A stretch of DNA of 50,954 nucleotides from assembly GCA_016927865.1 (NCBI GenBank), contig JAFGLU010000013.1, forward strand, positions 1-50,954. The letters run 5' to 3'. The first letter of the stretch is position 1. Each line of letters starts with the position of its first letter. Below the pieces are notes generated by a model. The model had not been told where the DNA came from. It saw nothing but the letters and a program-made list of their open reading frames with translations, and did no database searches. This DNA is from Anaerolineaceae bacterium (GTDB lineage: Bacteria > Chloroflexota > Anaerolineae > Anaerolineales > Anaerolineaceae). Both the position numbers and the translations under genes were made by a program. Below are positions 17,498 through 47,148 of this stretch, in pieces.

Positions 17498-17513
17498 TTA
17501 CCGTTGGAAATAC

Positions 17514-17562
17514 TTTTTTGAGTCATATTGCCCGGCTTCGCCGGGCAATATGACTCAAAAAA
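17514..17562. terminator. bidirectional terminator between dinG and the URO-D-like gene
   Basis: Perfect 23-bp stem (17514-17536 and 17540-17562, core GAGTCATATTGCCCGGC) with a 3-nt loop. T-run and A-run ends make it work both ways for the convergent genes. Confidence 0.8.
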
Positions 17563-17584
17563 AACTTGTCCCGAACTCAAATAA

Positions 17585-28823: not shown

Positions 28824-29183
28824 ATGCAAACCGAAATTGAATTCACGCTCCCGCGCGGATACGTGGACGCCGCCGGCCAGGTGCATCGTCAGGGCGCTAT
28901 GCGCCTGGCGACAGCTTTGGACGAAATCAGCGTTCAAGCAGATGCGCGGGCGCGTGCCAACGAAGCCTATATTCCGCTGCTGCTGCTCAGCCGGGTCGTA
29001 ATCCGGCTGGGCGGCATGACAGCCATCACACCGGGCGTTCTGGAAGGAATGTTTGCCTCCGACTTCGCCTATCTTCAAGACGTGTACCTGCGTCTGAACA
29101 GCCCCGCTCCGGTCACCGTCACAGCGGCTTGCCCGCACTGCGGCGGGCAGTTCCAACTGCAGGTCGCTCCGCTGGAAGGGTAA
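28824..29183 (+). CDS. tail-assembly-like protein with C-terminal CxxC zinc-ribbon pair
   Basis: A 119-aa protein resembling the small phage tail assembly proteins found with eCIS tubes: FTLPRGYVDAAGQVHRQGAM, RLATALDEISVQ, AYIPLLLLSRVVIRLGG and GVLEGMFASDFAYLQDVYLRLN. Residues about 105-108 are CPHC in the context AACPHCGGQFQLQV, one knuckle of a zinc ribbon; a second pair is absent, so metal binding would need a dimer. I infer a chaperone or tube-length assembly role from position between tube genes. Not part of any other pathway I recognise. Confidence 0.7.
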   Translation: MQTEIEFTLPRGYVDAAGQVHRQGAMRLATALDEISVQADARARANEAYIPLLLLSRVVIRLGGMTAITPGVLEGMFASDFAYLQDVYLRLNSPAPVTVTAACPHCGGQFQLQVAPLEG

Positions 29184-29413: not shown

Positions 29414-29857
29414 ATGCCCAAGAAATCACAACTTCTCGCCCAATCTCATCCCGCTTTTCGCTTCACGGTGGATGTGGATGGCGAGCGCCAGGCTGCCTTC
29501 ACCGATTGCACCCTGCCGGGTATCGAATGGGAAGCTGAGGAGGTGAAGGAAGGTGGTCTGAACACCTTTGTTCATCTCTTGCCGGGAATGCGCAAGGCTG
29601 CCCGCTTCACCCTGAAGAACGGCGTAGGCAAAAGCGCTCTCCTGGATTGGTACATCCAATCCCTGGGCAAAACCGTCTCGCGCAAAGCCCTCACCATCAC
29701 CTTGCTAGATTCGGAAGGCGAAGCGGTCATCACCTGGCAAGTGGAGCAATCTTATCCCATCAAATGGGTCGGGCCCGAGTTGCAAACCGCCAGCACCTCG
29801 GTTGCCATTCAATCTCTGGAATTCATCTGCGGAGAGGTCACCGTTACCACCGAATGA
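29414..29857 (+). CDS. tail tube protein 2 / tube initiator (T4 gp19-like, Pvc5-type)
   Basis: A 147-aa paralogue of tube protein 1 (HPAFRFTVDVDGERQAAFTD, LPGIEWEAEEVKEGG, FTLKNGVGKSALLDWYIQ, SYPIKWVGPEL, ATTSVAIQSLEFICGEV-like end). In PVC and AFP the second tube protein forms the layer that joins the spike and baseplate to the tube. Its TGA overlaps the ATG of the next gene (ATGA), which indicates translational coupling. Confidence 0.88.
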   Translation: MPKKSQLLAQSHPAFRFTVDVDGERQAAFTDCTLPGIEWEAEEVKEGGLNTFVHLLPGMRKAARFTLKNGVGKSALLDWYIQSLGKTVSRKALTITLLDSEGEAVITWQVEQSYPIKWVGPELQTASTSVAIQSLEFICGEVTVTTE

Positions 29858-31785
29858 ACCGCCCGCCCGGACTGCCCATCCTGCGTCGTTTGCACCGAGA
29901 AAGCTCTCCACAGCCTTTCTCGTCGATGAACGCTGCCCCCCTGCCGGCGGTCCCAGCCCGCTTACTTCCACCCGAAACCGACCTGCCCGCCGCGACGATC
30001 ATTGCCTCCGTTCCCATCCAGCCCATGCTGGAACCTCAACCGGCACCGGTGATAATCCCGCCCACCCCTGCCCCGTCTCTTCCTGAGCCGATTATCTCCC
30101 AACCACCAGAGGCGCCAGACTTGCCCAAGTCGACCGAACCCGAAGAATCCTCGGGCTTCGACGAGGACACCTGGGCTCGCCTGCAAGCCATCTATTCTCG
30201 CCACGAGCAGGTCGCAGTCCAAAGGACTCCCGAGCCTGCCTCCGCCCCCACCCCGCCAGTTCCTTTACCTGATCGTGAGTCTCCCGCCAAAAGCGCACAT
30301 CCTACTCAGGTAGAAGCAGCCGACGAACTGCCGACCCAACCCCTGCCCCTCGAAAGCGTCTGGCCCGTCCAGCGCGCCCAAGAGCCCAACGAGCTCGCCG
30401 TCTCACCTCAGCCCAAGCCCACCTCCCCCGTCCAGTCTCCCACTCCCGGCGCTGAAGTAACCCGCGCCCGTGACATCCTCCAAACCATCTCCCCCGCCCA
30501 GCCAACCGATTCCCACATTGAGATCATTCACCCGCGCACGCCTCGCCCCGCACCCTCTGCCCGGCCTTCTCCTCCTCCGCCAGCCCTGCAACCTGCAGTT
30601 CAACGGGAGGCTGAAGAAAGCCCCTCTTTAGTAGATACCCCCGCCGGTCCATTGCCTGCCGACCTGTGGGGCCTGATCGGCGAGGCGCCCCCGGTTCAGC
30701 GTTCTACCCAGGTTGGTCAAACGGCCCAACCCACAGAGACCCGCCGCCGACCTGAAACCGCCCAGGCATCTGCCCGGCGAAGTTCAGCCGCTCAAGCCCC
30801 AACCAAACCACCCACGCCTGCCCCGACAGAGCCAGCCCAGCAGCAAGAAACGACCGCCACCGCCCAAACTCTACCACCTCATGAAGTTGTATCTCAAGAA
30901 ACAACTCCCGCTACCGAAAGCGCTGCTTCGCCTGCACCCGCCGCGGCGCAAGAATTGACACCTGCTGCCAGCACTCACAAACCCGTCGAGCGGCCGGCCA
31001 GCCGACAAAATCCGCAACCCGCCACCCAAAACGTCGCTCCGCCGAGCCAGGCAGAACAACAAGAGGCGCCAGCTTCAACCACGGCTAAACCCTCTCCACT
31101 TCAGAGCCATGAAACTCAACACACCGCAGCGCCCGTAGAACAACAAGCCGCGCCTGCTCCACAATCGGCCGCGGCAAACACAACCCAGGCGGGTGAGACA
31201 AACACGAACACACTGTCTGTTCCGACCGACCAGACTCGTGTTACCCAGGCACAACCCACTCCCCCCGCAGCCGAACAAACCCAACCGCAGGAAGCCACGC
31301 CGCAGGAACCTGCTGCCCAACCTTCGCCCACTTCCCAAGGCCAGGCCGAGCAGCAGGCGACAACCCAAACCACCGCCACGCCGCCCAAGCCCCGCCCATT
31401 TTCCGAGATGTCGCTGCCCGACTCGCCTGCGCCCATCGAGCAGCAGGAAACAACTGCTACCCCAACCCAGACTCAGGAACAACCAGCGCAGGCAAGACCG
31501 GCTCCTTCCTCATCATCCTCCTCCAGCACCACCACGCCACCCGCTGCCGAGCAGCAAGAAACCACCGCCGCCACTCCCTCTAGTGCCGAGTCACAGCCCA
31601 GCGCTGCCTCAAGCCAGGCCCAAGGCGAATCCCCGGCTCAGCCTAGCGAAGCCCCCGCCCCGCCCTCCGGCGAACAACAATCTCCCGCGGGGCGCATCGA
31701 CACCGATGAATTGGCCCGCCGCGTATACGCCCAACTCCGCCGCCGCCTGGCGGTGGAATGGGAACGCCTGCGCGGGCGCTTTTAG
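29854..31785 (+). CDS. 643-aa Pro/Ala/Gln/Thr-rich injection-system protein with C-terminal docking helix
   Basis: An extreme low-complexity protein: almost the whole length is Pro, Ala, Gln, Thr, Ser and Glu without aromatic residues or predicted fold. Repeated short motifs are EQQETTA and variants (about eight, spaced 20-60 residues, second half) and VQR (four, first half: AVQRTPEP, PVQRAQEP, AVQREAEE, PVQRSTQ). A short ordered stretch is near residues 100-120 (FDEDTWARLQAIYSRHEQ). The last 27 residues form a basic helix (DTDELARRVYAQLRRRLAVE) like the end of the 69-aa protein. Start at 29854 overlaps the tube-2 stop; an earlier in-frame ATG lies inside tube 2. Candidate roles: tape measure, flexible linker or cargo adaptor in the tube lumen. 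None is proven. Confidence 0.75.
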   Translation: MNRPPGLPILRRLHRESSPQPFSSMNAAPLPAVPARLLPPETDLPAATIIASVPIQPMLEPQPAPVIIPPTPAPSLPEPIISQPPEAPDLPKSTEPEESSGFDEDTWARLQAIYSRHEQVAVQRTPEPASAPTPPVPLPDRESPAKSAHPTQVEAADELPTQPLPLESVWPVQRAQEPNELAVSPQPKPTSPVQSPTPGAEVTRARDILQTISPAQPTDSHIEIIHPRTPRPAPSARPSPPPPALQPAVQREAEESPSLVDTPAGPLPADLWGLIGEAPPVQRSTQVGQTAQPTETRRRPETAQASARRSSAAQAPTKPPTPAPTEPAQQQETTATAQTLPPHEVVSQETTPATESAASPAPAAAQELTPAASTHKPVERPASRQNPQPATQNVAPPSQAEQQEAPASTTAKPSPLQSHETQHTAAPVEQQAAPAPQSAAANTTQAGETNTNTLSVPTDQTRVTQAQPTPPAAEQTQPQEATPQEPAAQPSPTSQGQAEQQATTQTTATPPKPRPFSEMSLPDSPAPIEQQETTATPTQTQEQPAQARPAPSSSSSSSTTTPPAAEQQETTAATPSSAESQPSAASSQAQGESPAQPSEAPAPPSGEQQSPAGRIDTDELARRVYAQLRRRLAVEWERLRGRF

Positions 31786-31806: not shown

Positions 31807-32475
31807 ATGTCACCCACTCGCGGAAATCTGGTTCCCGCTCGAATATACGAAGTCGACAGCTCCGGCGCCGAAAAGAGCGGCGGCGTTTCGGTGGAGTGCA
31901 TGTTCAACCCCTTCGAGTACACCGTCACCAAGCAGAATCAATTTGAACAGAAAGCCAAGAACAACTCCAAAGTCCCCACCATCGAATTCAAGCAGTCCGG
32001 CCCCCAAACCCTTAAGATCAACCTGGTCTTCGATACCTACGAATCTGGCGAGGACGTGTCCCTGACTACCAATCTGTTGTGGAAGCTGATGGAACCTCCT
32101 GCCGGCAGCAGCAGCAAGAAAACGCCCCCACCCGAGGCCGCCTTTGAGTGGGGTGTCTTCCGCTTCGTAGCCCTCATCACGCAAATGTCACACAAGTTCA
32201 CCCTCTTCCTGCAGGACGGCACCCCCGTACGCGCCAAGGTAGAAGTGACCTTCAGCCAGCACAAAGATCTCAACGACTACCCCAACCAGAACCCCACCTC
32301 CGGGGCAGGCCCCGATGAACGCATCTGGCAGGTTATCTCCGGTGACCGCCTGGACACCATCGCTTATTCGGTGTATGGCGATGCCACCCGCTGGCGCACC
32401 ATCGCCCAGCGCAACGGCCTCACCAACCCGCTAGACCTGCAACCCGGGCAGGTGTTGATGATCCCCGAAGAATAG
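31807..32475 (+). CDS. LysM-domain baseplate adaptor (Pvc7-like)
   Basis: A 222-aa protein. Residues 1-170 match the contractile-injection-system adaptor (ECMFNPFEYTVTKQNQFEQK, PQTLKINLVFDTYESGEDV, VALITQMSHKFTLFLQDG, PVRAKVEVTFSQ). Residues about 174-222 are a LysM module (WQVISGDRLDTIAYSVYGDA, GLTNPLDLQPGQVLMIP). In PVC/AFP this protein clamps the spike-tube junction; LysM is used here as a structural module rather than for cell-wall binding. AGGAGA ribosome-binding site. Confidence 0.9.
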   Translation: MSPTRGNLVPARIYEVDSSGAEKSGGVSVECMFNPFEYTVTKQNQFEQKAKNNSKVPTIEFKQSGPQTLKINLVFDTYESGEDVSLTTNLLWKLMEPPAGSSSKKTPPPEAAFEWGVFRFVALITQMSHKFTLFLQDGTPVRAKVEVTFSQHKDLNDYPNQNPTSGAGPDERIWQVISGDRLDTIAYSVYGDATRWRTIAQRNGLTNPLDLQPGQVLMIPEE

Positions 32476-32482
32476 GACTGCC

Positions 32483-34168
32483 ATGCCAGAAAACAACGCT
32501 CTTGCCAGTCAAATCTCCATCAAGGTCGCCGGACAGCCCGTTCAGGATGATGTCCTATCCCGAATATTGGCTGTAACCGTTGACCAGCACGCTCACCTCC
32601 CCGGCATGTTCGTCATCCGCTTGACCGACTCTGATCTTAAGCTGCTCGATGAAGGACCGTTCAATCTAGCCAAAGAAATAGAAATCGCTGCCGAAAACGA
32701 AGGCGGCCAGAAAACCGTCCTCATGAAAGGCGAAATCACTGCCCTCGAGCCTGAGTTCGCCGAAGGCATGATTGCCGAACTGGTTGTGCGCGGCTATGAT
32801 CGCTCTCACCGCATGTTCCGCCAAACGCACAGCAAGGGTTTCATTAACACGAAAGACAGCGACCTCGCCCAACAAATCGCCCAAGACAACGGCTTGCAAG
32901 CCGAGGTCGAGACCACCCAAACCGTATATGAACACATCTTTCAGGACAACCAGACCGATCTCTCCTTCTTGATGGCCCGAGCCTGGCGAATTGGTTACGA
33001 ATGCTTCGTCGATGACGGCAAACTCTACTTCCGCAAGCCGCCTGGTAGCAGCGCCGAATCCATCACCCTCACCTGGGGCCAGGATTTGCAGTCCTTCTAC
33101 CCGCGCATGTCACTTGGCGAGCAAGTAGATGAAGTAATCGTCCGCGGCTGGGACCCGTCCTCCCAGCAAGCCATCGTCGGGCGCGCCTCTCGCGGCAACC
33201 TTTACCCGCAGGTAGGCGAGCAAAAAGACGGCGCTGGTTGGGCTCAGGAATTCGGTACGGGCAAGCGCGCCATCGTCAACATGGCGGTCATCAGCCAGGC
33301 CGAAGCCGACGCCCTCGCCGCCGCCCGCCTGGACGAGCTCAGCGGCGCCTTCCTCGAAGCCGAAGGCAGCGTCTTGCGCCGCCCTGAGATTAAAGCCGGG
33401 CGCGCCATCAAACTGGAGGCCCTCGGACAGCGTTTCAGCGGCACTTACTACATCACCAGCGTCACCCATCGCTACACGTCCTCCGGGCTGGTCTCCAACT
33501 TCAACGTCCGCGGCACCCGCACCGGGCTGCTCACCGAAAACCTCGTCCCGCCTCAGGAACGAGAACAACGCTGGTTCGGCGTGGTCATTGGCGTAGTCAC
33601 CAACACCGACGACCCCGAAGACATGGGCCGAGTCAAGGTCAAGTTCCCCTGGCTGTCTGAAGACGTGGAAAGCAACTGGTGCCGCGTGCTGGGAATTGGC
33701 GCGGGCAACAAAGCCGGTTTCTACGTCATGCCAGAGGTCGGCGATGAAGTCGTGGTCTCCTTCGAGCACGGCAGCATCAGCTTTCCGGTGGTACTGGGCG
33801 GCTTGTGGAACGGCAATAACCAGATTCCGCCCGAGGCATCCGGCACCCGCTCGGGCGAGCGCCCCAAAGCTCGCACCTGGCGCTCACTCACCGGTCACCG
33901 CATCACCATCCTCGACACCAGTGATAACAAAATTGAGGTCGAATCCGCTGCCGGAATGCAAATCATTCTGGACGATGCCAACAAGAGTATCACCCTAAAA
34001 AACGAGCAATCCACCATCAAAATGGAAAACAGCAAGATTGAAATCAAAACCGCTCAGGATGTCACCGTCGAGTCCAACGGAAACCTCAAGATCAAAGCCG
34101 GCGGAAACATCGACATCCAGGCCGGTGGACAGGTGACCGTCAAGGGCGCGCTGATCAACCTGAACTAG
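32483..34168 (+). CDS. VgrG-like central spike (gp27-gp5 fusion, Pvc8-like)
   Basis: A 561-aa spike subunit. Residues 1-350 are the phage late control D/gp27 hub (LPGMFVIRLTDSDLKLLDEG, ELVVRGYDRSHRMFRQ, GRASRGNLYP). Residues about 355-470 are the gp5 OB fold (WFGVVIGVVTNTDDPEDMGR, VKFPWLSEDVESNWCRVL, PEVGDEVVVSFEHGSISFPV). Residues about 485-561 are the triple-stranded beta-helix needle (ILDDANKSITLKNEQSTIKM, NLKIKAGGNIDIQAGGQVTV). The PAAR gene follows directly and would cap this needle. Confidence 0.94.
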   Translation: MPENNALASQISIKVAGQPVQDDVLSRILAVTVDQHAHLPGMFVIRLTDSDLKLLDEGPFNLAKEIEIAAENEGGQKTVLMKGEITALEPEFAEGMIAELVVRGYDRSHRMFRQTHSKGFINTKDSDLAQQIAQDNGLQAEVETTQTVYEHIFQDNQTDLSFLMARAWRIGYECFVDDGKLYFRKPPGSSAESITLTWGQDLQSFYPRMSLGEQVDEVIVRGWDPSSQQAIVGRASRGNLYPQVGEQKDGAGWAQEFGTGKRAIVNMAVISQAEADALAAARLDELSGAFLEAEGSVLRRPEIKAGRAIKLEALGQRFSGTYYITSVTHRYTSSGLVSNFNVRGTRTGLLTENLVPPQEREQRWFGVVIGVVTNTDDPEDMGRVKVKFPWLSEDVESNWCRVLGIGAGNKAGFYVMPEVGDEVVVSFEHGSISFPVVLGGLWNGNNQIPPEASGTRSGERPKARTWRSLTGHRITILDTSDNKIEVESAAGMQIILDDANKSITLKNEQSTIKMENSKIEIKTAQDVTVESNGNLKIKAGGNIDIQAGGQVTVKGALINLN

Positions 34169-34175: not shown

Positions 34176-34577
34176 ATGGGCCAACCCGCAGCGAAACAAG
34201 GTGACCAGGTCATAGCCATAGATATGCACATCGTGATGGTTCCCAGCCCAGGCGGCCCGGTGCCCACTCCCCTACCGCATCCTTTCAGCGGGATGTTGGA
34301 CGGCAGCCTCAGCACCGATGTGAAAATCATGGGCGTTGCCGCTGCCACAATGGGCAGCACAGCACGCAATCTTCCGCCCCACATGCCCACGCCGCCCGGA
34401 ACCACTTTTCAAATCCCGCCCCAAAACCAGGCCACCATTCTGCGCGGCAGTTCCACTGTCCTGATTAACGGCAAATCCGCGGCCCGTGCTGGCGACATGG
34501 TTCAGACCTGCGCCGACCCGGTACCCAACACCGCCGGACAAATCATCGCCGCAAGCACCGTCATGATCGGAGGCTAA
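34176..34577 (+). CDS. PAAR-type spike tip protein
   Basis: A 133-aa tip protein (Pvc10-type, PAAR/DUF4150-like). Features: AAKQGDQVIAIDMHIVMVPS, GPVPTPLPHPFSG, ATILRGSSTVLINGKSAARA, GDMVQTCADP. The His and Cys (DMHIVM, HPFSG, TCADP) are the kind of residues that bind the zinc or iron at the tip. No toxin domain is fused to it. Lies 7 nt after the spike gene. Confidence 0.9.
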   Translation: MGQPAAKQGDQVIAIDMHIVMVPSPGGPVPTPLPHPFSGMLDGSLSTDVKIMGVAAATMGSTARNLPPHMPTPPGTTFQIPPQNQATILRGSSTVLINGKSAARAGDMVQTCADPVPNTAGQIIAASTVMIGG

Positions 34578-34581: not shown

Positions 34582-34977
34582 ATGTCTCAAGATTTCACCG
34601 GACGCGGGTGGGCCTTTCCACCCAAAATTGATGCTCAGGGCGGCCTGGCCCTCACCGATGAGCGCAGCGAAATCGAACAGGCCATCCGCATCATCCTCAC
34701 CACAACCCCGGGTCAGCGCGTCATGCGCCCCACCTTCGGCTGCCGCCTGCGCGAACTTGTCTTTGCCCCCAACAACAGCGCCACCGCCGCCCAGGCTCGC
34801 CGTTTTGTCGAAGAGGCCCTCGGCATGTGGGAGCCGCGCATCATCGTCAAAAGCGTTGAAGCCCGCCCCGATGAAGCCAACCCTCACTGCATGGTGATCG
34901 AAATCACCTACCAGGTCAAGGCCACGCACGACCGCCGCAGCCTGGTGCATCCTTTCTATCTGATCCCTGAAGAGTAA
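34582..34977 (+). CDS. baseplate wedge protein gp25-like (Pvc9-type)
   Basis: A 131-aa GPW/gp25 family protein that starts sheath assembly at the baseplate. Motifs: GWAFPPKIDAQGGLALTD, EIEQAIRIILTTTPGQRVMR, PTFGCRLRELVFAPNN and ALGMWEPRIIVKSVEA, all classic for the family. GGAGG ribosome-binding site overlaps the PAAR gene end. Confidence 0.94.
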   Translation: MSQDFTGRGWAFPPKIDAQGGLALTDERSEIEQAIRIILTTTPGQRVMRPTFGCRLRELVFAPNNSATAAQARRFVEEALGMWEPRIIVKSVEARPDEANPHCMVIEITYQVKATHDRRSLVHPFYLIPEE

Positions 34978-34992: not shown

Positions 34993-36996
34993 ATGTCACT
35001 GCCCGTCCCCAAGCTCGATGATCGTCACTTCCAGGACCTCGTTGACGAAGCCAAGAAGCGCATCCCTCACTACACGAAGGAATGGACCGACCACAACGTC
35101 AGCGACCCCGGCGTCACGCTGGTGGAACTGTTCGCCTTCATGACCGACGTGCTCCTCTACCGCCTCAACCAGGTGCCGGATTTGCACTACGTCCGCTTCC
35201 TCGAAATGCTCGGCGTACGCCTCAAACCGCCCCAGCCCGCTCGCGTTCCGGTCACCTTCTGGTTATCCGCCCCTCAACCCGCCCCCATCGTCATCCCCGG
35301 TGGCACGGAGGTTGCCAGCACCCAGACCGAGACCCAACCTGCCATCATCTTCACCACCGACCAGGACTTCACCGTCCACCCGCCGCAACTGGCTGGATTA
35401 TTCTCGCGCGTGCAGTCCCGCGAAAGCGACAAAAAATCACTCCGCGAGCACAACTTGCGCCGTCTCGAAGCTGGATTCGAGGGGGTAGAGGTTTTCTCCT
35501 CCGTCCCTCAGGTCGATGATGCCCTTTATCTGGGCTTTAACAACGACCTCAGCCACCACGTCCTGCGCCTGGAAGCAGACTTCGACCCCGCCGGCGGCGC
35601 CGGCGTAGACCCCACCCAACCGCCCTACCTGGTGGAAGCCTCCACCGGCAAGGAAACGGGGCACTGGCAGCCCTGCGCCATCGAGGAGGACACCACCCGT
35701 GGCATGAATGTCGCCGGCAGGCTTCAAATCCACCTTCCAGCCATGGGCAAGTATGCAGTCGGCGAACAGACCCTCTACTGGGTACGCGTGCGCGTCAAAG
35801 ACATCACCCCCGCCGAAACCCGCGAAGGTATGCAACCATACAACAAATCGCCGCGCGTCAAGAAGCTGACCGTCACTGCCATAGGCGGCACCATTCCCGC
35901 CACCCACGCCCGCACCATCCGCAGCGAGTTCCTCGGCCAGTCCGACGGCTCACCGGGCCAGCGCTTTCACCTTCAGCAGCACCCCATTCTGAGTCGCCGC
36001 AGCGGCGAAACCCTCATCGTCCAGGTTGAAAATCAGGCGCCTCAAGAGTGGATCGAGGTCGAGCATTTTGCCTACTCGCTGTCCGACGACCCCTGCTTCA
36101 CACTCGATAGCGTCTCCGGCGAGCTGCGCCTGGGGCCTGCCGTGCGCCAGCCCGATGGCGCCATGAAGTTGTACGGAGCAGTGCCCCCGCGTGGAACCAA
36201 CCTGGTCTTCAGCGCCTATCGCACCGGCGGTGGACAGGAGGGCAACGTGCAAACCGGCATCATCAACACCCTCAAAACCGCCATCCCCTTCATTTCCCGT
36301 GTCGCCAACCGTCAAACGGCCTGGGGCGGGCTGGACGCCGAAAGCCTCGAATCCGCCATGACCCGCGCGCCCGCCCTGCTGCACTCTCGCGAGCGGGCCG
36401 TCACAGAAGATGATTTCGAATTCCTGGCCCGCCAGGCTCTCCCCGTCGCCATCGGTCGAGTCAAATGCCTGCAACCCAGCCCCGACCAGGCCGGCCGGGT
36501 CATCCCTGGCCAGGTTTACCTGCTGGTCATCCCCCGCCTACCCAATCCCCAGGCCTATCTCGACCCCAACAGCCTGAACCTGGCCGAAGCCGACATGGAC
36601 GCCCTGCGCGCCTACATGGACGAGCGCCGCCTGCTCACCTGCCGCCTCGATATTCGCCCGCCCGCCTATCTGTGGACCTCCGTCCGTGCCCAGTTGCACC
36701 CCTCTCCCGATATAGAGAAATCCGTCGTTGAAGGCGAGGTGCTGGCGCGCCTATACCGCTTCCTCAACCCGCTCACGGGTGGCCCAGATGGCAAAGGCTG
36801 GCCCTTTGGCCGCACACTCTACATCTCCGACGTGTACCAGTCCCTGCAGGGGCTTCCCGGCGTGCAATTCGTCCGTTCGGTGGAAATGTACGCCACCCGC
36901 CCCGGCGGCGGTCCCGAAGGCTCCCCTGTGGAAAGCATAGAAGTCATCGCCCACGGCGTGATCGCCTCGGGCAAACACGAAGTAAAGTTCATATAG
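34993..36996 (+). CDS. baseplate assembly protein J-like (Pvc11-type)
   Basis: A 667-aa wedge protein of the putative baseplate assembly family. N-terminus: LPVPKLDDRHFQDLVDEAKK, HNVSDPGVTLVELFAFMTDV, LLYRLNQVPDLHYVRFLEML. The Baseplate_J core is near residues 420-560 (GNVQTGIINTLKTAIPFISR, ESAMTRAPALLHSRERAVTE, DDFEFLARQALPVAIGRVKC). The C-terminus is VYQSLQGLPGVQFVRSVEMY. It joins the wedge to the hub. The DUF4157 gene follows after 13 nt. Confidence 0.93.
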   Translation: MSLPVPKLDDRHFQDLVDEAKKRIPHYTKEWTDHNVSDPGVTLVELFAFMTDVLLYRLNQVPDLHYVRFLEMLGVRLKPPQPARVPVTFWLSAPQPAPIVIPGGTEVASTQTETQPAIIFTTDQDFTVHPPQLAGLFSRVQSRESDKKSLREHNLRRLEAGFEGVEVFSSVPQVDDALYLGFNNDLSHHVLRLEADFDPAGGAGVDPTQPPYLVEASTGKETGHWQPCAIEEDTTRGMNVAGRLQIHLPAMGKYAVGEQTLYWVRVRVKDITPAETREGMQPYNKSPRVKKLTVTAIGGTIPATHARTIRSEFLGQSDGSPGQRFHLQQHPILSRRSGETLIVQVENQAPQEWIEVEHFAYSLSDDPCFTLDSVSGELRLGPAVRQPDGAMKLYGAVPPRGTNLVFSAYRTGGGQEGNVQTGIINTLKTAIPFISRVANRQTAWGGLDAESLESAMTRAPALLHSRERAVTEDDFEFLARQALPVAIGRVKCLQPSPDQAGRVIPGQVYLLVIPRLPNPQAYLDPNSLNLAEADMDALRAYMDERRLLTCRLDIRPPAYLWTSVRAQLHPSPDIEKSVVEGEVLARLYRFLNPLTGGPDGKGWPFGRTLYISDVYQSLQGLPGVQFVRSVEMYATRPGGGPEGSPVESIEVIAHGVIASGKHEVKFI

Positions 36997-37009
36997 GTTG
37001 GAGGCTGTA

Positions 37010-39184
37010 ATGAACGAACCCTCAAGCAGCAAACAGACTGTCTCGAAATCTACGGCGAAAACACCAGTTTTGCGACCGGAAGTCATTCAAACCAACCCGC
37101 AAAATGACAGCTCACAATTTCCCGAGGGGATGCAAGCCGAAAACCTGATCAATTTGCCCAGTCAATCTGCCACAACCGCCCTTCGCAGAGCCGCTGTTCA
37201 AAAGTTACAACAATCACACGGAAATCAGGCAGTCCAGCGGCTCATGGATGAAGACGACAAAGATAAACAAGATGCTTCACCGACGATTGCCCTAAAAATA
37301 AAAAACAGTCTCGGTCAAGGAAAACCTCTCGATCAGAACGTTCAGAGTCAACTTGAGGAGCATCTACAAAGCGACCTTTCTTCCGTCCGCGTCCACACCG
37401 ATCCAGACGCCCATCAAATGGCCAAAGAACTGCGCGCAAAGGCCTTTACAACCGGGCAGGATATCTATTTCCGCAGCGGCACGTATGCCCCCGAATCGCC
37501 CGAAGGGGCACGGCTTTTGGCCCATGAGGCCGCGCACACCATGCAACAGAAACGCGGCCCTGTTTCCGGAACATTAACAGACGATGGGCTGCTATTAAGT
37601 CAACCCGGTGACGCGTATGAGCAACAAGCCGACCAAATCGCCAATCAATGGATAGATTCTTCAAGGGCAATGCCCGCACCCAAGGGGCTGGTTCAACGCG
37701 AAACAGAATCAGCCTCCGCCAAAGCACTGGAAGAAGCCGCGGATGAAGCACAACTCATCGATGCAGTAAAAATCGACCAAAAAATGGCAGGCATCGATAA
37801 CGTCGATGATATCAACCAGGCGAAATCCCTGCTCAACCAGGTCATCGCTGCAACGGCCACTCTGGACCCTCACATGGGAGAAAAAGGTTGGGGCGGCTAC
37901 TTAACCAACCAACACAAGGTAGATAACCAAAATGCGGCTCAAAACCTGGAACTCTATCTGACGTATGCAGGCGAAGAATCGCGCACTTCCGGGGATTTCA
38001 AAACTCGCTACACAATGGTCAAAACCCGCTTTAGCCGCCTGGATGCTATGGCAAACGAGTGGATGGCCATGTACGACACCGACATGCGCACCCCGGAAGA
38101 CTTCATCAAAACCGAGACCGGCATGGACGCCCAGGGAGCCGGAAAACAGGCCAAACAATTAGCCAATCGCAGTAAAGATGAGCCCACCGAAGCCGTGGAA
38201 GCTCGCGCTGCTCGTGATCGCATCAAGGACCTCCGCAACACAGCCGGCACGCAAATGACATTACTCAACAGCTTCGACGATCAGGCCCGCGACGCCAACT
38301 TGCGGGTGATTGGCGCAGCTAACCGTATCGAATCCACAGCTCAAGCATCAAAGGCCAAGCCCGAAGAGCCTGATTCGCCTCAAGTAGCGGATGTCAAGAA
38401 GAAAATGGCCGATGTAAAAGCCAAAATGAGCGCTGGTGTTAGCGTGGCAAAAATGATCCCTGGAGCAGGCAAGTATGTCGAAGGGGTTGAATCAGCCGCC
38501 TCGGCAACCTCCACAGCCGCCGAAGCCACCGGATTGGACATCGATCTAACCAAAGTGCCCGACATGATCCTCACAGACATCTACCGGACAGACCTGGAAA
38601 ATGCGCTCTCGGCTCAGAATACAGCCCGTGCCGCTGCCGCCACGGCTGGAAGCAGTGCCAACACGGCGGAATTGGAAGCCGCTCTGGGCGCAAAGGTTTC
38701 CGCCGCCCAGAGCCGCAAGGAAATTGCCGACCAACTGAACACTACACTGACCAGCATCCGCGAAGCCATCAACACCTTGGGCCAGATGCTGGACGAAACC
38801 TACAAAACAAAGAAGGGCGGCGGCCAGGTGGGTGGCGGCTATGAACTGATCGCGAAATTCCTGGCCGAAGCTGATACGTGTATGTACGAAGCCGACATGG
38901 CCTTGCACTCGGGCAAGCTTCAAAAGGACAGCGCCACGCAAACCGAGGGCAAGCGGAAAATCACCCTGGAAGAAAAGAACAGTCAATACCATCGCGTCGA
39001 GCCGGTGGCCGACCGCTTTGAAATCATCACCAAGCACATCGCCATCATTAGCACCGGCGAAGGCTCTTCCGGTGGTGAGGGCGGGATGAGCGAAATGGTA
39101 GAAAAAATGATCGCTGAAATCGAAGCCGGAAAGAAGATCATTGAAGCGTATAAAACCAAATTCAACCAGGCGTTAGGCCTCTAG
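37010..39184 (+). CDS. DUF4157 eCIS core-domain protein, zinc-metalloprotease-like
   Basis: A 724-aa protein. The N-terminal region has LQQSHGNQAVQRLM, the Gly-Asn-x-Ala motif common ahead of DUF4157. DUF4157 spans about residues 110-210: LSSVRVHTDPDAHQMAKELR, GQDIYFRSGTY, and HEAAH (175-179), with Glu204/Asp208 in DAYEQQADQIA as likely third ligand; all gluzincin residues are kept. Residues 230-724 are long alpha helices with a Gly/Ala-rich patch (about 480-520). DUF4157 is a marker of eCIS loci and often found on cargo. The start at 37010 follows GGAGG; TTG at 36998 is less likely. Its codon use is more A/T-rich than that of neighbours, especially at the start. Confidence 0.85.
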   Translation: MNEPSSSKQTVSKSTAKTPVLRPEVIQTNPQNDSSQFPEGMQAENLINLPSQSATTALRRAAVQKLQQSHGNQAVQRLMDEDDKDKQDASPTIALKIKNSLGQGKPLDQNVQSQLEEHLQSDLSSVRVHTDPDAHQMAKELRAKAFTTGQDIYFRSGTYAPESPEGARLLAHEAAHTMQQKRGPVSGTLTDDGLLLSQPGDAYEQQADQIANQWIDSSRAMPAPKGLVQRETESASAKALEEAADEAQLIDAVKIDQKMAGIDNVDDINQAKSLLNQVIAATATLDPHMGEKGWGGYLTNQHKVDNQNAAQNLELYLTYAGEESRTSGDFKTRYTMVKTRFSRLDAMANEWMAMYDTDMRTPEDFIKTETGMDAQGAGKQAKQLANRSKDEPTEAVEARAARDRIKDLRNTAGTQMTLLNSFDDQARDANLRVIGAANRIESTAQASKAKPEEPDSPQVADVKKKMADVKAKMSAGVSVAKMIPGAGKYVEGVESAASATSTAAEATGLDIDLTKVPDMILTDIYRTDLENALSAQNTARAAAATAGSSANTAELEAALGAKVSAAQSRKEIADQLNTTLTSIREAINTLGQMLDETYKTKKGGGQVGGGYELIAKFLAEADTCMYEADMALHSGKLQKDSATQTEGKRKITLEEKNSQYHRVEPVADRFEIITKHIAIISTGEGSSGGEGGMSEMVEKMIAEIEAGKKIIEAYKTKFNQALGL

Positions 39185-39191: not shown

Positions 39192-40181
39192 ATGGACACC
39201 TACACCCACCGCCTCACCCTTCAAGGCCCCACCGGCCAGCGCGACATCGACCTCACCATCGGTTCACTGATCATTGGTCGTCAGGTAGGCTGTGATCTCG
39301 TCCTCGAAGACACGCTCATCTCCCGCCGACACGCCCGCCTCGATTGCTCCGCCATGGATTGCACCATCACCGACCTGAACAGTTCCAACGGCACGCGCGT
39401 CAGTGGCGAACGTCTCGTTCCCGATTTACCTCGCCTGCTGGCTCCAGGCGAAGTCATTCAAATTGGCGCCTTCTCGCTCGCCTATCAGCAAATCCCTCTC
39501 ACAGAACCCGCGCCCGAGCCGCCTCCGCCCGCGGTGGAAGATAAGCCCAAAGTAGAACCAAAACCTCAACCCGCCCCGGAACCGCCCGTCAAGCAGCCCA
39601 AGAAGACCGCCCCCGCTCGAGAGGAGCCGCCCGCCCAACCTCCGCCACCCACTAAGAAGGTCCGCCCTCAAGCCCCTCCACCTGCGCCCGGCCCCGTCCC
39701 GCCAGGCATGGAGATGCGCTCCACCCGCCTGATCCAATACCTGCCCGACATCTACCATACCGACTTCATGGCGCGCTTCTTGGGCATCTTTGAGTCCACC
39801 TCCACGCCCATTGAATGGACTATTGACAACTTCGATCTGTTCCTCTCCCCTGCCTCGGCTCCGCCCGGCTTTTTGCCCTGGCTGGCCAATTGGTTCAACA
39901 TCCCCCTGGATGCCTCCTGGACAGAAGAAAAGCGCCGCATATTGTTAGCGGAAGCCCATGAGATTTACGCTCGGCTGGGCACTCGCTGGTCATTGTGCCG
40001 CATTCTCGAAATCTACACGGGAGTCACCCCAGAAATCGACGACACCTCCAAAGACCTGGAGCCTCATTCATTTCGGATTCGCCTGCCGATCAAACCCGGC
40101 CAGGTGAACCAAACTTTGGTCGAACGGTTGATTAACACCCATAAGCCGGCATATACTACATATACGCTAGAATTTGCGTAA
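39192..40181 (+). CDS. fusion of FHA domain and phage tail protein I (baseplate wedge)
   Basis: A 329-aa fusion. Residues 1-100 are a complete FHA phosphothreonine-binding domain: Gly29-Arg30, Ser44-Arg45-x-His47 and Asn66-Gly67-Thr68 (LIIGRQVGCDLVLEDTLISR, TDLNSSNGTRVSG). Residues about 103-173 are a Pro/Lys-rich linker. Residues about 176-329 are tail protein I (TRLIQYLPDIYHTDFMARFL, PGFLPWLANWFNIPLDASW, WSLCRILEIYTGVTPEI, YTTYTLEFA), the wedge protein (Pvc12-like place) that binds baseplate J. The FHA would be displayed at the baseplate rim. A Ser/Thr kinase gene follows. Confidence 0.92.
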   Translation: MDTYTHRLTLQGPTGQRDIDLTIGSLIIGRQVGCDLVLEDTLISRRHARLDCSAMDCTITDLNSSNGTRVSGERLVPDLPRLLAPGEVIQIGAFSLAYQQIPLTEPAPEPPPPAVEDKPKVEPKPQPAPEPPVKQPKKTAPAREEPPAQPPPPTKKVRPQAPPPAPGPVPPGMEMRSTRLIQYLPDIYHTDFMARFLGIFESTSTPIEWTIDNFDLFLSPASAPPGFLPWLANWFNIPLDASWTEEKRRILLAEAHEIYARLGTRWSLCRILEIYTGVTPEIDDTSKDLEPHSFRIRLPIKPGQVNQTLVERLINTHKPAYTTYTLEFA

Positions 40182-40185
40182 CAAC

Positions 40186-40224
40186 TTAGTCAGAGGTTGA
40201 AGAGACTCGATTTACTTTTATAGA
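40186..40224 (+). promoter_or_regulatory. candidate internal promoter before the kinase gene
   Basis: TTGAAG (40197-40202), 16 nt, TATAGA (40219-40224) in the 71-nt gap, the longest gap in the operon. The segment 40186-40214 also resembles one outer-plus-inner arm of the palindromic repeat family (CTTAGTCAGAGG...CGATTT), so it may be a repeat remnant. Confidence 0.35.
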
Positions 40225-40252
40225 ACCGGTAGAGCAATAAGGGAGCAGCAGC

Positions 40253-43200
40253 ATGGCAGACATGGTCGGTAGGACAATTGGACGGTACCAACTTAATAAA
40301 CTCCTTGGCGAAGGCGGCATGGGCTCGGTCTACAAAGGCCGCGATATCACCCTTCAGCGTGACGTCGCCGTGAAAATCATGCACTCCCAGTTCGTTCGCC
40401 AGGCCGATTTCCGCGAGCGCTTTCTGCAGGAAGCTCGCACCGCTGCCCGCTTCAACCACCCCTCGGTAGTGCAGGTTTTTGATTTCGGTCAAACCCAGGA
40501 TGCGCTCTACATTGTCATGGAGTTCATCCCCGGCGACAACCTCGGCAAGCTGCTCACCGATCTTCGCGCCCAAAAGAAATGGATCCGCCTGGATGAGGCT
40601 CTGGAACTGCTCCGCCAGGTCGCCCTCGCCCTCGACTATGCGCATAAACACGGCGTCCTGCACCGCGACATCAAACCCGCCAACATCATGCTGCGCCCCG
40701 AACCCAGCGGCTCCCTCCCCTACCGCCCCGTTATCACCGACCTCGGCCTGGCCAAGCTGGTTGGACAAGCTGGCATCACCCAGGACGGCACTAGCATGGG
40801 CACCCCCGCCTACATGTCCCCCGAACAGGCCATGGGTGAAGACCTCGACGCTCGTTCCGACGTGTATTCGCTTGGCGTCTTGCTCTACGAACTGGCCACC
40901 GCCCAATTGCCCTTCCCTGCTCGGACCATTTCTGAGGCCATTCGTTACCACACCAAAGAACAGCCCCCTACGCCCTCCTCCATTCGCCCCGATCTGCCCC
41001 CTGCGCTGGAACAGTTCATCCTCAGCACCCTCTCCAAAGATCCCACCCAGCGCCCTGCCAGCGCCGCCGATCTGGCCAAAGGCCTGGAAAACCTCATCCC
41101 CAGCGCCACGCCTGTCGGCAGCGCTCCCACCGCCATCGGCCCCGCCGAGTCACTGGCTACCCAATATCAGCAATCCATGATCGACCGCGGCCCCTCGCTG
41201 ATGGGCGACCTGGGCGCACCCGAGACAGCCAACATAGATCGGGTCCAGGTCATTTTAAAAGACCAAACCTCCCGCCACGTGCCCCTGCAACCCGGCCAAA
41301 CTGTTGTTGGGCGCGACCGTGCTGCAACCATCTACCTCGACGACTCCAAAGCATCCCGCCAACACGTATCTATTGAGGGCAGCAACGGCCAGTACAAGGT
41401 TACCGATCTCAACTCGACCAACGGCACCTTCTTGGGCACCGCCCGCCTGCTGCCTGGCGTACCCGAAGCCTGGACACCCAACAAGCTGCTCCTCATCGGC
41501 GACACTTACCTGCGCCTCATTCCTGCCGTAGCATCCTCCTCAGTGCAGCGCTCATCCATCCTCCGTCGCGATGGCACCCAGGTGGAAACAGGCGACGTCC
41601 ATGCGTCCAACGGCGAAGGCCGCCTGGCGGTTTTCGTCGAAAACCCCGCCATCTCGGTCGAACCGGGCAGTTCTGTCACCCTTTCCTTCACTTTGCTCAA
41701 CCAGGGCCCTCTGGTCGATCACTTCGGCGTCACCCTGGCCGGGTTGCCCCCCACCTGGGTTCAACTCCCGGCGCCCATCCAACTGCTTCCCGGCGAACAG
41801 CGCACAGCTCAAATCACCGTGCGCCCGCCCCGTTCCTCTCAAAGCCCCAGTGGGTCCTACATCCCCAGGCTGTTGGTAACCTCCCAGGAAAACCCCGGAC
41901 AACTTGTCGAAGTCACCATCAACCTGACGGTGGGCAGTTACCAGCATTTCCGCGCCGAGCTTCGCCCACAGCGGGTAAAGTCAAAGTCGGTAGCGAAATT
42001 ACGAATCGAAAACTCCGGAAATCGCCCCGAGACTTTTGCGCTCATCTTTTCTGATCGCGCCGATGAACTCACCTTCACGCCTGCCACACGGCAGGCAAAA
42101 GTGGCCGCCGGGCAAGCCGTAGAAGTCGGCTTCACTGCACGCCCCCGCCATCGCAAATTGCTGGGCGGCGAGCAAATCCACCCCTTCACCATTCAGGTGG
42201 ATCCTCCCACGGGTGACCCACAAAGTTTATCTGGCGAATTGGTCAGCCGGGCCATCTTCCCGTTGTGGCTGCTGCCCATCCTAATGACCCTTTGCGTTTT
42301 TGCCATCGGCGCAGTTATCCTTTTGTTCACCGCCCAAAACCAGGTCAAAGCGGACCAAACCGCCACCGCTCTTGCAATGGTATCCACCGTTGAAGCCCAG
42401 GTTCGCGAGCAAGCCGCCCTGGCCACGGTTGCCGCCGCCACACTAGCCGCCCTCAACGATGACGACGGGGACGGCCTGACCAATAGCCAGGAAGCCGCCT
42501 TAGGCACCGACCCCAACAACCCCGACACCGATTTGGATGGTCTCAAAGATGGCGAAGAAGTCAATGTCTTCGGCACCCTCCCAAAGAGCAATGACAGCGA
42601 CACAGATACCCTGCCCGATGGACTGGAAGTGCACGAACTCGGAACCAGCCCCACCAACAAGGACACCGACGGTGACGGGCTCAACGACAATGTCGACGCC
42701 GACCCCGGCCAACCACCCACCGTCACGCCTTCGCCCACCCCCACACCTGGCATTCCGGGCGACGGCATCGTCATGAACTGCGCCTACCCCACAACATATC
42801 ACCGCTTCCGCCTGGAGGATCGCGGCTCTCAAGGACGATCGGTGTACGTCGACTTGTGGAAAGCAGGCGAGTGGATCACCGTCTGGTCACTTGAGGGCGG
42901 CGACCCCATGATGCGTCAAATCGAGCTGGAAGGGCTGGGCCTACATAAATTCGGCGAGTGTCACCAGTTAGTCGTGGTTCCCCTGCGCTCCTCCGGCTCC
43001 GGCGCTTACCTCGACCTCCAGGTCTTTATGTGGAATGGGACAACTATCCAGCAAGTGCTGGCTATTGGGTTGACGCAGGGAACGTGGGAGATAGCCGGCA
43101 ATTCCATCAGAACCGATCAATCCGTCTATCTCTACGGTGAACCCAATTGTTGCCCGTGCAACCGGGAAGAAAAATATTTCGACTGGAATGGCACCCAGTT

Positions 43201-43315
43201 TGTCGAGGGAGCCGTATCACTGAACCCCACTTATGTTGGCGATCCCCCGGATGAATGCAAGCCAAAATTCTTCCCGCTGCTGCCCACCATGATCTTCATC
43301 CTCCCACAACCGTAA
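40253..43315 (+). CDS. transmembrane Ser/Thr protein kinase with FHA, Ig-like and TSP3-type Ca2+ repeats
   Basis: A 1020-aa protein. Residues 13-280 are a Hanks-type kinase with all key residues: glycine loop GEGGMGSVYKG, Lys41 (VAVKIM), Glu60, HRD with Asp139, metal Asp163 (DLG in place of DFG) and MSPEQ. About 328-424 is an FHA domain (VVGRDRAATIYLDD, SRQHVS, NSTNGT). About 450-660 are two NEW3/Ig-like beta domains. About 667-690 is the only membrane span. About 733-819 hold TSP3-like DxDxDG repeats (DDDGDGLTNSQEA, DTDLDGLKDGEE, DTDGDGLNDNVD). The C-terminus (830-1020) has a Cys cluster (NCCPCNREE) and no known fold. Expected topology: kinase, FHA and Ig-like inside, repeats outside. It closes the operon and probably phosphorylates partners of the FHA-tail protein. 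Confidence 0.92.
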   Translation: MADMVGRTIGRYQLNKLLGEGGMGSVYKGRDITLQRDVAVKIMHSQFVRQADFRERFLQEARTAARFNHPSVVQVFDFGQTQDALYIVMEFIPGDNLGKLLTDLRAQKKWIRLDEALELLRQVALALDYAHKHGVLHRDIKPANIMLRPEPSGSLPYRPVITDLGLAKLVGQAGITQDGTSMGTPAYMSPEQAMGEDLDARSDVYSLGVLLYELATAQLPFPARTISEAIRYHTKEQPPTPSSIRPDLPPALEQFILSTLSKDPTQRPASAADLAKGLENLIPSATPVGSAPTAIGPAESLATQYQQSMIDRGPSLMGDLGAPETANIDRVQVILKDQTSRHVPLQPGQTVVGRDRAATIYLDDSKASRQHVSIEGSNGQYKVTDLNSTNGTFLGTARLLPGVPEAWTPNKLLLIGDTYLRLIPAVASSSVQRSSILRRDGTQVETGDVHASNGEGRLAVFVENPAISVEPGSSVTLSFTLLNQGPLVDHFGVTLAGLPPTWVQLPAPIQLLPGEQRTAQITVRPPRSSQSPSGSYIPRLLVTSQENPGQLVEVTINLTVGSYQHFRAELRPQRVKSKSVAKLRIENSGNRPETFALIFSDRADELTFTPATRQAKVAAGQAVEVGFTARPRHRKLLGGEQIHPFTIQVDPPTGDPQSLSGELVSRAIFPLWLLPILMTLCVFAIGAVILLFTAQNQVKADQTATALAMVSTVEAQVREQAALATVAAATLAALNDDDGDGLTNSQEAALGTDPNNPDTDLDGLKDGEEVNVFGTLPKSNDSDTDTLPDGLEVHELGTSPTNKDTDGDGLNDNVDADPGQPPTVTPSPTPTPGIPGDGIVMNCAYPTTYHRFRLEDRGSQGRSVYVDLWKAGEWITVWSLEGGDPMMRQIELEGLGLHKFGECHQLVVVPLRSSGSGAYLDLQVFMWNGTTIQQVLAIGLTQGTWEIAGNSIRTDQSVYLYGEPNCCPCNREEKYFDWNGTQFVEGAVSLNPTYVGDPPDECKPKFFPLLPTMIFILPQP

Positions 43316-45854: not shown

Positions 45855-45996
45855 GTAGATATACAATCACACGGCTCTTTCAAAATCGACAGAAGAAGCC
45901 CAGGTTTACTCCACCCACTCAGGATTGAATTTTTGGGAACTTATCTCTGGATTGTGCGTTATAAAGAGTGATCAATACAGCAAGGAGAAAGCAAGA

Positions 45997-47148
45997 ATGA
46001 AACGAACTATCTTAAATATGATTTTTTCCGGCTTAGCTGCTCTCATATTGGTAGGTTGCAATATGCCCACCAAGAGCACCTCTACCGCCGAACCAAACGC
46101 TGCCGGCACCCAGGCCGCTCAAACCCTGCAGGTCCTCATGACTCAGGTCGCCGGGGCCGCCACGGTCACCCCCGGAGCCGGTGCGCCCACCAGCACACCG
46201 CAGCCACAAGCCCCCACCGCAACCATTGTGCCACCCACCGCAACGCAAGCCCTCACCAGCACCCCCGTGCCGGTGGCTTGTGACGCAGCTCGTTTCGTGA
46301 CCGATGTCACCATTCCCGACGGCACCTCCATTGTTGCTGGAGCCAAGTTCACCAAAATTTGGCGGCTAAAGAACGTCGGCACCTGCACCTGGACCACCTC
46401 CTATTCCCTGGTCTTCACCAGTGGCAACGCAATGGGCTCACCGGCCTCAGTCGCTATGCCCACCAACGTGGCCCCCAACCAAACCATCGATGTTTCTATT
46501 GAGTTAGTCGCCCCCAACACAACCGGTGATTATCGCGGAAACTGGCTGCTGCGAAACGCCTCAGGGCAAAGCTTTGGCCTGGGAGGAAACAACGAGACGT
46601 TCTACGCCGACATCAAGGTCGTTTCTGCTCCTCCCAACTCCGGCTCTTACGATTTCGCCGCCAATTACTGCGCCGCAGAATGGTCAACCGGCGCCGGTGT
46701 CATCTCCTGCACTACACCCGATAAGGACGCCAAGGGCTTTGTCGTCTATGTTGCCAAACCCTACCTCGAATCCGGGACTCAGGACAATGAACCGGGTCTT
46801 GTGCTTGGACCGCAAAACATCAACGATAGCATTATTCGTGGCAAGTACACACCCTTCACCGTCAAAGATGGAGATCACTTCAAGGCCGTCATCGGCTGCG
46901 AGTACAACGCCAAGGACTGCAACGTAAAACTCCAACTCGATTACCAGATCGATAACGGCACAATCACCACCCTGGCCACCTGGAGCGAAACTTACGATGG
47001 CGACTTCCACCAGGTGGACGTCGACTTGAGCAGCCTGGCTGGGAAATCGGTCAAATTCATCCTAACCGTTATGGCTAACGGCTCTGCTTCCGGCGACCGT
47101 GCCCTGTGGCTCTCACCACGCATCCAAAACGTCCCCGCCACGCCCTAA
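45997..47148 (+). CDS. NBR1-Ig-like domain lipoprotein
   Basis: A 383-aa lipoprotein. Signal peptide with lipobox LVGC (Cys about 22). A Pro/Thr/Ala linker spans about residues 30-90. Residues about 95-205 are an NBR1-type Ig domain (FVTDVTIPDGTSIVAGAKFT, KIWRLKNVGTCTWTTSYSLV, GDYRGNWLLRNASGQSFG), common in Chloroflexota envelope proteins. Residues 215-383 are a second beta-rich region (FAANYCAAEWSTGAG, YTPFTVKDGDHFKAVIGCEY, FHQVDVDLSSLAGKSVKF) of unknown role. The start at 45997 follows AAGGAGAAAG; earlier in-frame ATG at 45925 lacks such a site. Confidence 0.88.
   Translation: MKRTILNMIFSGLAALILVGCNMPTKSTSTAEPNAAGTQAAQTLQVLMTQVAGAATVTPGAGAPTSTPQPQAPTATIVPPTATQALTSTPVPVACDAARFVTDVTIPDGTSIVAGAKFTKIWRLKNVGTCTWTTSYSLVFTSGNAMGSPASVAMPTNVAPNQTIDVSIELVAPNTTGDYRGNWLLRNASGQSFGLGGNNETFYADIKVVSAPPNSGSYDFAANYCAAEWSTGAGVISCTTPDKDAKGFVVYVAKPYLESGTQDNEPGLVLGPQNINDSIIRGKYTPFTVKDGDHFKAVIGCEYNAKDCNVKLQLDYQIDNGTITTLATWSETYDGDFHQVDVDLSSLAGKSVKFILTVMANGSASGDRALWLSPRIQNVPATP

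Follow-up and report, generated by a model that had tools for sequence, protein, structure and literature searches.

An FHA-bearing Cis12 baseplate protein and its neighbouring membrane kinase: a possible phosphorylation-controlled dock for a Chloroflexota contractile injection system

The DNA analysed here, called the window, is a stretch of 50,954 nucleotides from an Anaerolineaceae bacterium (Chloroflexota; assembly GCA_016927865.1) and constitutes a whole contig (C59; JAFGLU010000013.1) of a genome in 147 contigs that is 84.5% complete. A contractile injection system (CIS) cluster occupies its + strand from Pvc16 (25908) through a kinase gene (43315). By the open reading frame (ORF) list and Pfam, the 3' end of this cluster consists of a gene for FHA-Cis12, a baseplate wedge protein with an N-terminal FHA domain, followed by a gene for a membrane Ser/Thr kinase with an FHA of its own; this identity of the last two genes had been proposed in an initial annotation, and ORF coordinates and Pfam bear it out. 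The gaps are short: the preceding eCIS_core gene stops at 39184, FHA-Cis12 spans 39192-40181, and the kinase starts at 40253. We propose, at roughly even chances, that the pair is a phosphorylation-controlled membrane dock for a CIS assembled in the cytoplasm. This model has its observed basis in the domains, their intact residues, and the co-occurrence and co-variation of the two partners. The link to phospho-control is drawn from that co-occurrence and from the joint loss of key residues in related bacteria; docking of the particle on the membrane is what we infer. The two genes and their parts are as follows.

39192-40181, + strand: FHA-Cis12, 329 residues (Pfam, NCBIfam, PDB profile match, AlphaFold, Foldseek)
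39225-39488, + strand: N-terminal FHA, residues 12-99, with R30, S44, H47, N66 and G67 present (pLDDT, the predicted local distance difference test score, ~97)
39504-39716, + strand: Pro-rich tether, predicted flexible, residues ~105-175 (low pLDDT)
39723-40175, + strand: Cis12/Tail_P2_I wedge domain, residues 178-328
40253-43315, + strand: membrane Ser/Thr kinase, 1020 residues (Pfam, hydropathy, motifs, model)
40286-41059, + strand: kinase domain, residues 12-269, with K41, E60, D139, N144 and D163 present
41159-41161, + strand: T303, candidate acceptor Thr in the kinase-FHA linker, recurrent in an otherwise variable linker
41240-41518, + strand: the kinase's own FHA, residues 330-422, with R354, S368, H371, N390 and G391 present
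41624-42247, + strand: two immunoglobulin-like (Ig-like) domains, residues ~458-665 (Pfam and model)
42269-42325, + strand: single transmembrane (TM) helix, residues 673-691 by hydropathy (model helix 673-690)
42326-43312, + strand: presumed extracytoplasmic part, with a TSP3 repeat and a C-terminal region of low conservation (low-confidence model)

The FHA-Cis12 protein joins a phosphothreonine-reader fold to a structural wedge. Pfam assigns FHA (E 2.8e-16, residues 27-92) and Tail_P2_I (E 1.1e-13, residues 204-320), and an AlphaFold model from a 37-row alignment is confident in both domains (pLDDT mostly >90) around a low-confidence linker of ~70 residues. The predicted template-modelling score (pTM) of the whole model is 0.44, a value to be expected when two domains are independent. 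The stretch between the domain matches measures 78 residues in the window, 38% of them Pro, and the tether has a median length of 72 residues across 44 intact-site loci. We identify the wedge half as Cis12 because it matches the Streptomyces coelicolor baseplate chain 9gtp_E (profile E 6.4e-31, the best of four solved-structure matches) and NCBIfam CIS12_fam (E 1e-19, far under the curated cut-off and a hint only); the same baseplate, 9gtp, appears at rank 43 in the Foldseek list for FHA-Cis12. Phosphothreonine-binding FHA sites are built from Arg, Ser and Asn. The corresponding R30, S44 and N66 are all present in the window Cis12 FHA, which, judged by its residues, is canonical for phosphothreonine binding. 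Conservation of these three positions in alignment A4 was discarded as evidence, all but one of its rows having been chosen from intact-site loci. The mycobacterial FhaA/Rv3910 pair belongs to a cell-envelope growth system, not to a contractile machine, and Rv3910, the partner of FhaA in 3oun, is presumably a kinase-like membrane protein. FhaA FHA folds are the closest to the Cis12 FHA (3po8 and 3poa best, target template-modelling score 0.92), and 3oun, titled in the PDB as the FhaA FHA in complex with the Rv3910 intracellular domain, stands at rank 12. Curated models name the pieces only (CIS12_fam, TagH-like FHA, PknB-like), and all but one of the inspected matches lie below cut-offs. The arrangement is not unique to the window: the fetched loci contain 75 complete FHA-Cis12 genes.

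The product of the last gene matches Pfam Pkinase (E 5.4e-51, residues 12-269), FHA (E 9.3e-12, residues 350-403) and TSP3_bac. Its kinase motifs are intact (VAVK, HRDIKPAN, DLG), and their inspection agrees with the initial annotation in placing the catalytic Asp at D139; the protein is a Hanks-type Ser/Thr kinase with complete catalytic motifs and is predicted to be active. The structural model comprises a PknA/PknB-like kinase, the FHA, two beta-rich Ig-like domains, a helix at residues 673-690 and a low-confidence C-terminus. The Ig-like domains are presumably cytoplasmic, since they lie N-terminal to the TM helix. No fold identity was found for the ectodomain, where the model is of low confidence and the best 50 folds listed for the protein were all protein kinases. 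Among aligned kinases, Pfam kinase and FHA domains recur in 23/23 and the Ig-like FixG_C in 19/23, and the Pfam content of the ectodomain varies between members (TSP3, PLAT, laminin G, DUF7452). Median pairwise identity is 0.49 for the kinase, 0.39 for the FHA, 0.28 for the Ig part and 0.16 for the ectodomain; a conserved cytoplasmic kinase beside a divergent ectodomain makes the latter look sensor-like. The kinase-FHA linker contains an S-[LMI]-x-T motif, picked after inspecting linkers, in 21 of 49 complete kinases and in 0 of 16 dead ones (2000 shuffles: mean 2.5, maximum 8).

The membrane half of this kinase appears largely specific to CIS loci. The window genome has seven further kinase-domain matches, all ending by query residue 351, so that the whole Ig half and most of the FHA lie beyond them. 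Genomes G068 and G382 each have a single match to the Ig-TM-ectodomain part; in G166, six of seven matches lie at 2,050,297-2,067,004, right after the Cis12 gene (2.046 Mb), in an apparent array, and the seventh covers the TSP3 part only. One match at the CIS and two short ones are found in G652, and eight in G838: four on two Cis12 contigs, one strong (contig C11) and three short. The strong one, an Ig-TM-half match at G838:C11:11409-12581 (E 1.7e-58), is an exception to locus specificity, no Cis12 domain being found on its contig. In Roseiflexaceae-type loci (family f61; L074 in G166, 12073-19899), FHA-Cis12 is followed by kinase-FHA-Ig(-TM) genes in tandem, three of them within 10 kb, and Ig-TM matches continue past that stretch.

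Reader and kinase occur together in related bacteria. A kinase lies on the same strand within 9 kb in 45 of 55 FHA-Cis12 loci versus 0 of 52 Cis12 loci without FHA (Fisher p 9e-21), and at a stricter Cis12 cut-off (E<1e-44) the kinase/no-kinase counts are 44/10 with FHA versus 0/28 without (p 7e-14), the p-values of this survey assuming independent loci, of which five come from the Thermogemmatispora genus group and two have identical Cis12 domains. The initial annotation had suggested surveying FHA-gpI and kinases in this way; FHA-gpI regularly without a kinase is not what we see. The kinase may lie on either side of Cis12, so that the counts include upstream L181 and L198 and overlapping L161. 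Measured from the final base of Cis12, a kinase start lies between 3 bp upstream and 207 bp downstream in 33 FHA-Cis12 loci, nine of which show a 4-bp overlap. One opposite-strand kinase was seen, near L122. Ten of the 55 FHA-Cis12 loci have no such kinase; six of these lack the phosphate-binding residues and four still have them. T6SS-like regulation (T6SS, type VI secretion system) by a generic neighbouring kinase was rejected on the absence of same-strand kinases within 9 kb from all 52 non-FHA loci. On sequence evidence, the link between Cis12 FHA and kinase appears strong.

The survey covered mainly Chloroflexota, with few other taxa. A Cis12-domain profile (A3) has matches in 69/400 Chloroflexota genomes at E<=1e-10 and, at E<=1e-20, in 40/158 genomes of G166's class, 14/47 of G068's class and 93/396 of the window's class; the four samples overlap. 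Flanks came from 153 places (73, 20 and 60), the window and six Deinococcales/Acidobacteria loci, lower-scoring matches being left out. This set holds 157 Cis12 ORFs at E<=1e-20, 149 with an uncut 5' end, 107 of the latter with at least 5 kb downstream. The eight rows cut at the 5' end and left out are L138, L140, L176, L195, L119, L163, L192 and L201; the first four, Cis12 hits without FHA beside kinases, were dropped as truncated at contig ends. FHA-type loci may be over-sampled, because 14 of the 19 rows of the A3 query are of that type. A complete kinase was defined by its Lys, HRD Asp, catalytic Asn and DFG Asp, and an intact FHA by its Arg, Ser and Asn; some kinases run off contig ends (e.g. 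L081, L083, L142) with the catalytic loop still visible. The surveyed loci themselves supplied the models of kinase, FHA and Ig domains.

Binding site and catalysis are also lost together. Among 52 complete FHA-Cis12 loci with a kinase, 35 combine an intact site with a complete kinase, none an intact site with dead kinases only, seven a lost site with a complete kinase, and ten a lost site with dead kinases only (p 1.2e-6; p 1.2e-5 on dropping L193 and L168, the latter a dead-only remnant without N-lobe). This co-variation of site residues with kinase catalysis supports phospho-dependence. At the outset it had been suggested that phosphorylation could tether, recruit or gate the particle; the co-variation favours the phospho-dependence in that idea, and the persistence of dead-only loci counts against its necessity in every system. 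The FHA inside the kinases is intact in 40/43 complete and 8/17 dead ones, and FHA domains in other locus proteins are intact in 8/10 complete-kinase loci, 1/7 dead-only loci and 17/55 kinase-less ones. Dead kinases are found in G166's class (families f25/f61, with HGG, HGS or HGN for HRD), in Deinococcales (HWQ, HGQ) and in some window-class loci. Pseudokinases that have lost the HRD Asp stand beside a degenerate-site FHA-Cis12 in L077, L079, L081, L083, L141 and L142 (f25/f61) and in the Deinococcales loci L056 and L057; the six Chloroflexota loci also carry a separate FHA-Ig-TM or FHA-Ig protein. Pairs of tips on supported branches were compared on a 102-row Cis12-domain tree made by a quick method. 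Where they differ in FHA (n=2), the kinase differs the same way in 1.5 pairs on average, the opposite way in 0 and not at all in 0.5; where they differ in kinase (n=3), the FHA figures are 1.2, 0 and 1.8. Pairs differing in the site (n=4) show completeness going the same way in 2.5, opposite in 0.1 and unchanged in 1.5, and pairs differing in completeness (n=5) show the site doing so in 2.8, 0 and 2.2. Reader and writer thus co-vary in the sequences, with few independent evolutionary events behind the counts.

The wedge domain is constant while the N-terminus of Cis12 varies. We took a census of this N-terminal slot in the 84 loci that could be evaluated, with Cis12 at E<=1e-40 and 5 kb or more of downstream sequence; 'nothing found' refers to this survey's models only. 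An intact FHA fills the slot in 34/84, accompanied by a complete kinase in 30, an FHA-Ig-TM protein without kinase in two and nothing found in two; a degenerate FHA fills it in 21/84, with a complete kinase in six, dead kinases only in nine, FHA-Ig-TM in four and nothing found in two. An Ig-like beta domain with an RYPGE-type motif occupies it in 16/84, never with a kinase (12 FHA-Ig-TM, two Ig-TM, two nothing found), and another Ig domain in 3/84, all three with FHA-Ig-TM. The slot is empty in 10/84 (one FHA-Ig-TM, four Ig-TM, five nothing found). At L080, a Cis12 without FHA has a partner that likewise lacks FHA and carries Ig-like, TM and TSP3 parts. Together, the census and L080 suggest that no element is more widespread than the Ig-TM membrane partner and that kinase and reader look like a matched add-on. 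Loci L162, L185, L189, L190, L202, L206, L210, L214 and relatives combine an RYPGE Ig-like slot with separate FHA and FHA-Ig-TM genes nearby, no kinase being found there.

The remaining cluster genes identify the machine to which the pair belongs.

25908-26762, + strand: Pvc16 (Pfam)
26822-28336, + strand: sheath (Pfam)
28358-28804, + strand: tube (Pfam)
28824-29183, + strand: chaperone-like (PHROG tail assembly chaperone)
29414-29857, + strand: second tube (Pfam)
within 29647-31785, + strand: ORF without family assignment
31807-32475, + strand: LysM tube protein (Pfam)
32483-34168, + strand: hub (Pfam)
34176-34577, + strand: PAAR (Pfam)
34582-34977, + strand: gp25 (Pfam)
34993-36996, + strand: gpJ/Cis11 (Pfam)
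36998-39184, + strand: eCIS_core protein (Pfam)

Sheath, tube, hub, PAAR, gp25, gpJ, Cis12, Pvc16 and eCIS_core are thus all present by Pfam, as in a contractile injection system. No AAA-family match was found among the cluster ORFs scanned, which are part of the window's ORFs (the contig ends at 50954). The ORF at 29647-31785, without a Pfam, PHROG or NCBIfam match, overlaps the 3' end of the second tube gene and precedes the LysM tube protein. The eCIS_core gene (36998-39184) separates gpJ from FHA-Cis12; most relatives compared have Cis12 directly after gpJ. The product of the third ORF past the kinase (45925-47148) has an Ig domain of the NBR1 type, and its N-terminal part is hydrophobic.

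The T6SS frame of the initial annotation does not hold; the closer relatives are the cytoplasmic CIS of Streptomyces and Chloroflexota, and no Pfam match to a T6SS membrane complex (TssJLM) or separate Fha scaffold was found among the window ORFs scanned. Cis12 is homologous between the window and the S. coelicolor CIS (9gtp_E, profile E 6.4e-31), and this chain, the best of four matches, places the window nearest the Streptomyces wedge protein, as in lineage IId, on the Cis12 match alone. The match covers residues 22-182 of the 190-residue S. coelicolor chain, which leaves no room for an FHA. Streptomyces CisA is a membrane protein encoded downstream of the baseplate and needed for firing (PMC12237407); the window kinase gene likewise lies just downstream of the baseplate genes. 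The same paper shows a cytoplasmic N-terminus for CisA, as is probable for the window kinase, describes the cytoplasmic part of CisA as largely unstructured, and predicts that CisA binds Cis11. The words 'kinase' and 'FHA' do not occur in the main text of that paper on the S. coelicolor CIS with CisA. In L122-L125 and L129 (Thermogemmatispora class, another CIS type), two small single-TM proteins follow directly after Cis12, in the position of CisA; in L129 one of them is fused into a larger protein. The Chloroflexota/Deinococcota clade described in PMC12998442 shares the window's phylum and a similar gene set. Its Roseiflexus and Deinococcota particles are unattached in the cytoplasm, Roseiflexus has no close cisA homologues, and a cytoplasmic mode of action of lineage IId CIS is put forward there as a hypothesis (PMC12998442); 'kinase', 'FHA' and 'forkhead' have no occurrence in its main text. 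The threonine phosphorylation pathway of the T6SS (PpkA, Fha and TssL; PMC3953482) likewise sets a kinase and an FHA reader in control of a contractile machine, Agrobacterium Fha binding pThr14 of the membrane protein TssL. There, however, the reader is a separate Fha protein, whereas the window has it joined to the wedge, next to a kinase that bears FHA and Ig domains. The window system may thus work like the T6SS phosphorylation pathway without being one.

In the dock model, the ectodomain would sense an envelope signal, and the kinase would phosphorylate itself or its twin, perhaps in the linker around T303. Six baseplate FHA arms, a number taken by analogy from the six Cis12 chains in 9gtp, would then bind the phosphothreonines multivalently, and the free particle would be recruited baseplate-first to the membrane and there armed or fired. 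The long tether, in six copies per baseplate, would suit multivalent capture by a phosphorylated membrane protein, and the kinase would be the counterpart of CisA, doing the same work by different chemistry. We advance more tentatively, its chances falling somewhat short of even, a fuller version in which a self-phosphorylating Chloroflexota receptor kinase, read by six FHA arms, forms a multivalent firing switch, possibly self-killing; in several lineages a dead kinase and a lost site would leave a constitutive clip, and the Cis12 N-terminus would be an exchangeable adaptor position, holding an FHA, an Ig-like domain or nothing to match the membrane partner.

Several observations speak against phosphorylation-controlled docking. 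Four evaluable loci (L078, L172, L178, L187) have an intact FHA with no kinase nearby. T303 is a post hoc candidate, the linker motif being missing from 28/49 complete kinases. Seven site-lost loci keep a kinase scored as complete; in six of them N66 has become His, and five of these six pair a degenerate kinase with a complete one, while the kinase of the seventh, L100, may be dead too (HGDITSSN, DYG, no alpha-C Glu). The dead-only locus L193 ends 2.8 kb downstream, where relatives carry a second, complete kinase. Phosphorylation is dispensable in some systems, because dead-kinase systems persist. The independent events are few: minimum changes on the tree number five for FHA, six for kinase, six for the site and eight for completeness (the last two among FHA rows), and tree-based sign tests on two to five independent pairs cannot reach significance, the direction being almost never opposite. 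Docking would also have to be transient or induced, because in the tomograms published for relatives the particles are not attached to the envelope.

The kinase might instead modify CIS or regulatory proteins, the Cis12 FHA then recruiting a phosphorylated assembly partner, so that assembly is gated and docking is not the point. We regard this as unlikely. It fits the co-occurrence and co-variation data equally, the FHA sits on a core baseplate piece, and PpkA and Fha of the T6SS supply a precedent (PMC3953482); yet the clade's published particles assemble free in the cytoplasm (PMC12998442), and an Ig-TM protein adjoins Cis12 in many relatives even without a kinase, which favours a membrane role. 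The ten kinase-bearing FHA-Cis12 loci where only dead kinases are seen (L193 unsure) speak for another account, unlikely on the whole, in which the FHA mainly clips Cis12 to the FHA-Ig-TM partner independently of phosphorylation, the activity of the kinase being incidental or serving another purpose. FHA-Ig-TM proteins do adjoin Cis12 proteins without FHA, and the slot also hosts Ig-like beta domains, but a mere clip would have no need to retain R, S and N wherever catalysis is retained, and none of the 35 intact Cis12 FHA loci has dead kinases only. That kinase and CIS are merely co-regulated or co-travelling, with the FHA reading another kinase's product, is very improbable: the seven other kinase-domain matches in the window genome, the four intact loci without a neighbouring kinase and the few independent events would allow it, but a kinase on the same strand within 9 kb is seen at 0/52 Cis12 loci without FHA, and the FHA-Ig-TM half is unmatched by the genome's other kinases.

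Literature searches, with preprints and most subscription journals outside their scope, found no published description of FHA-Cis12 or of a CIS-linked kinase of this type; one paper that mentions FHA proved to do so in an unrelated context. PMC12998442 raises the question of how cytoplasmic CIS that lack CisA get to the membrane and fire there, and FHA-Cis12 with its kinase is a named candidate pair for it, with active-site residues that can be removed. The same pair is found in Thermogemmatispora carboxidivorans PM5 (L053), and contracted sheaths have been obtained from T. carboxidivorans DSM 45816 (PMC12998442), so that the candidate is available in a cultivated species for which such sheaths are on record. 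If the phosphorylation-controlled dock is real, a structural component of this contractile machine, its baseplate, would itself act as phospho-reader for a receptor kinase, and the lineages with pseudokinases would be natural experiments in the loss of the switch.

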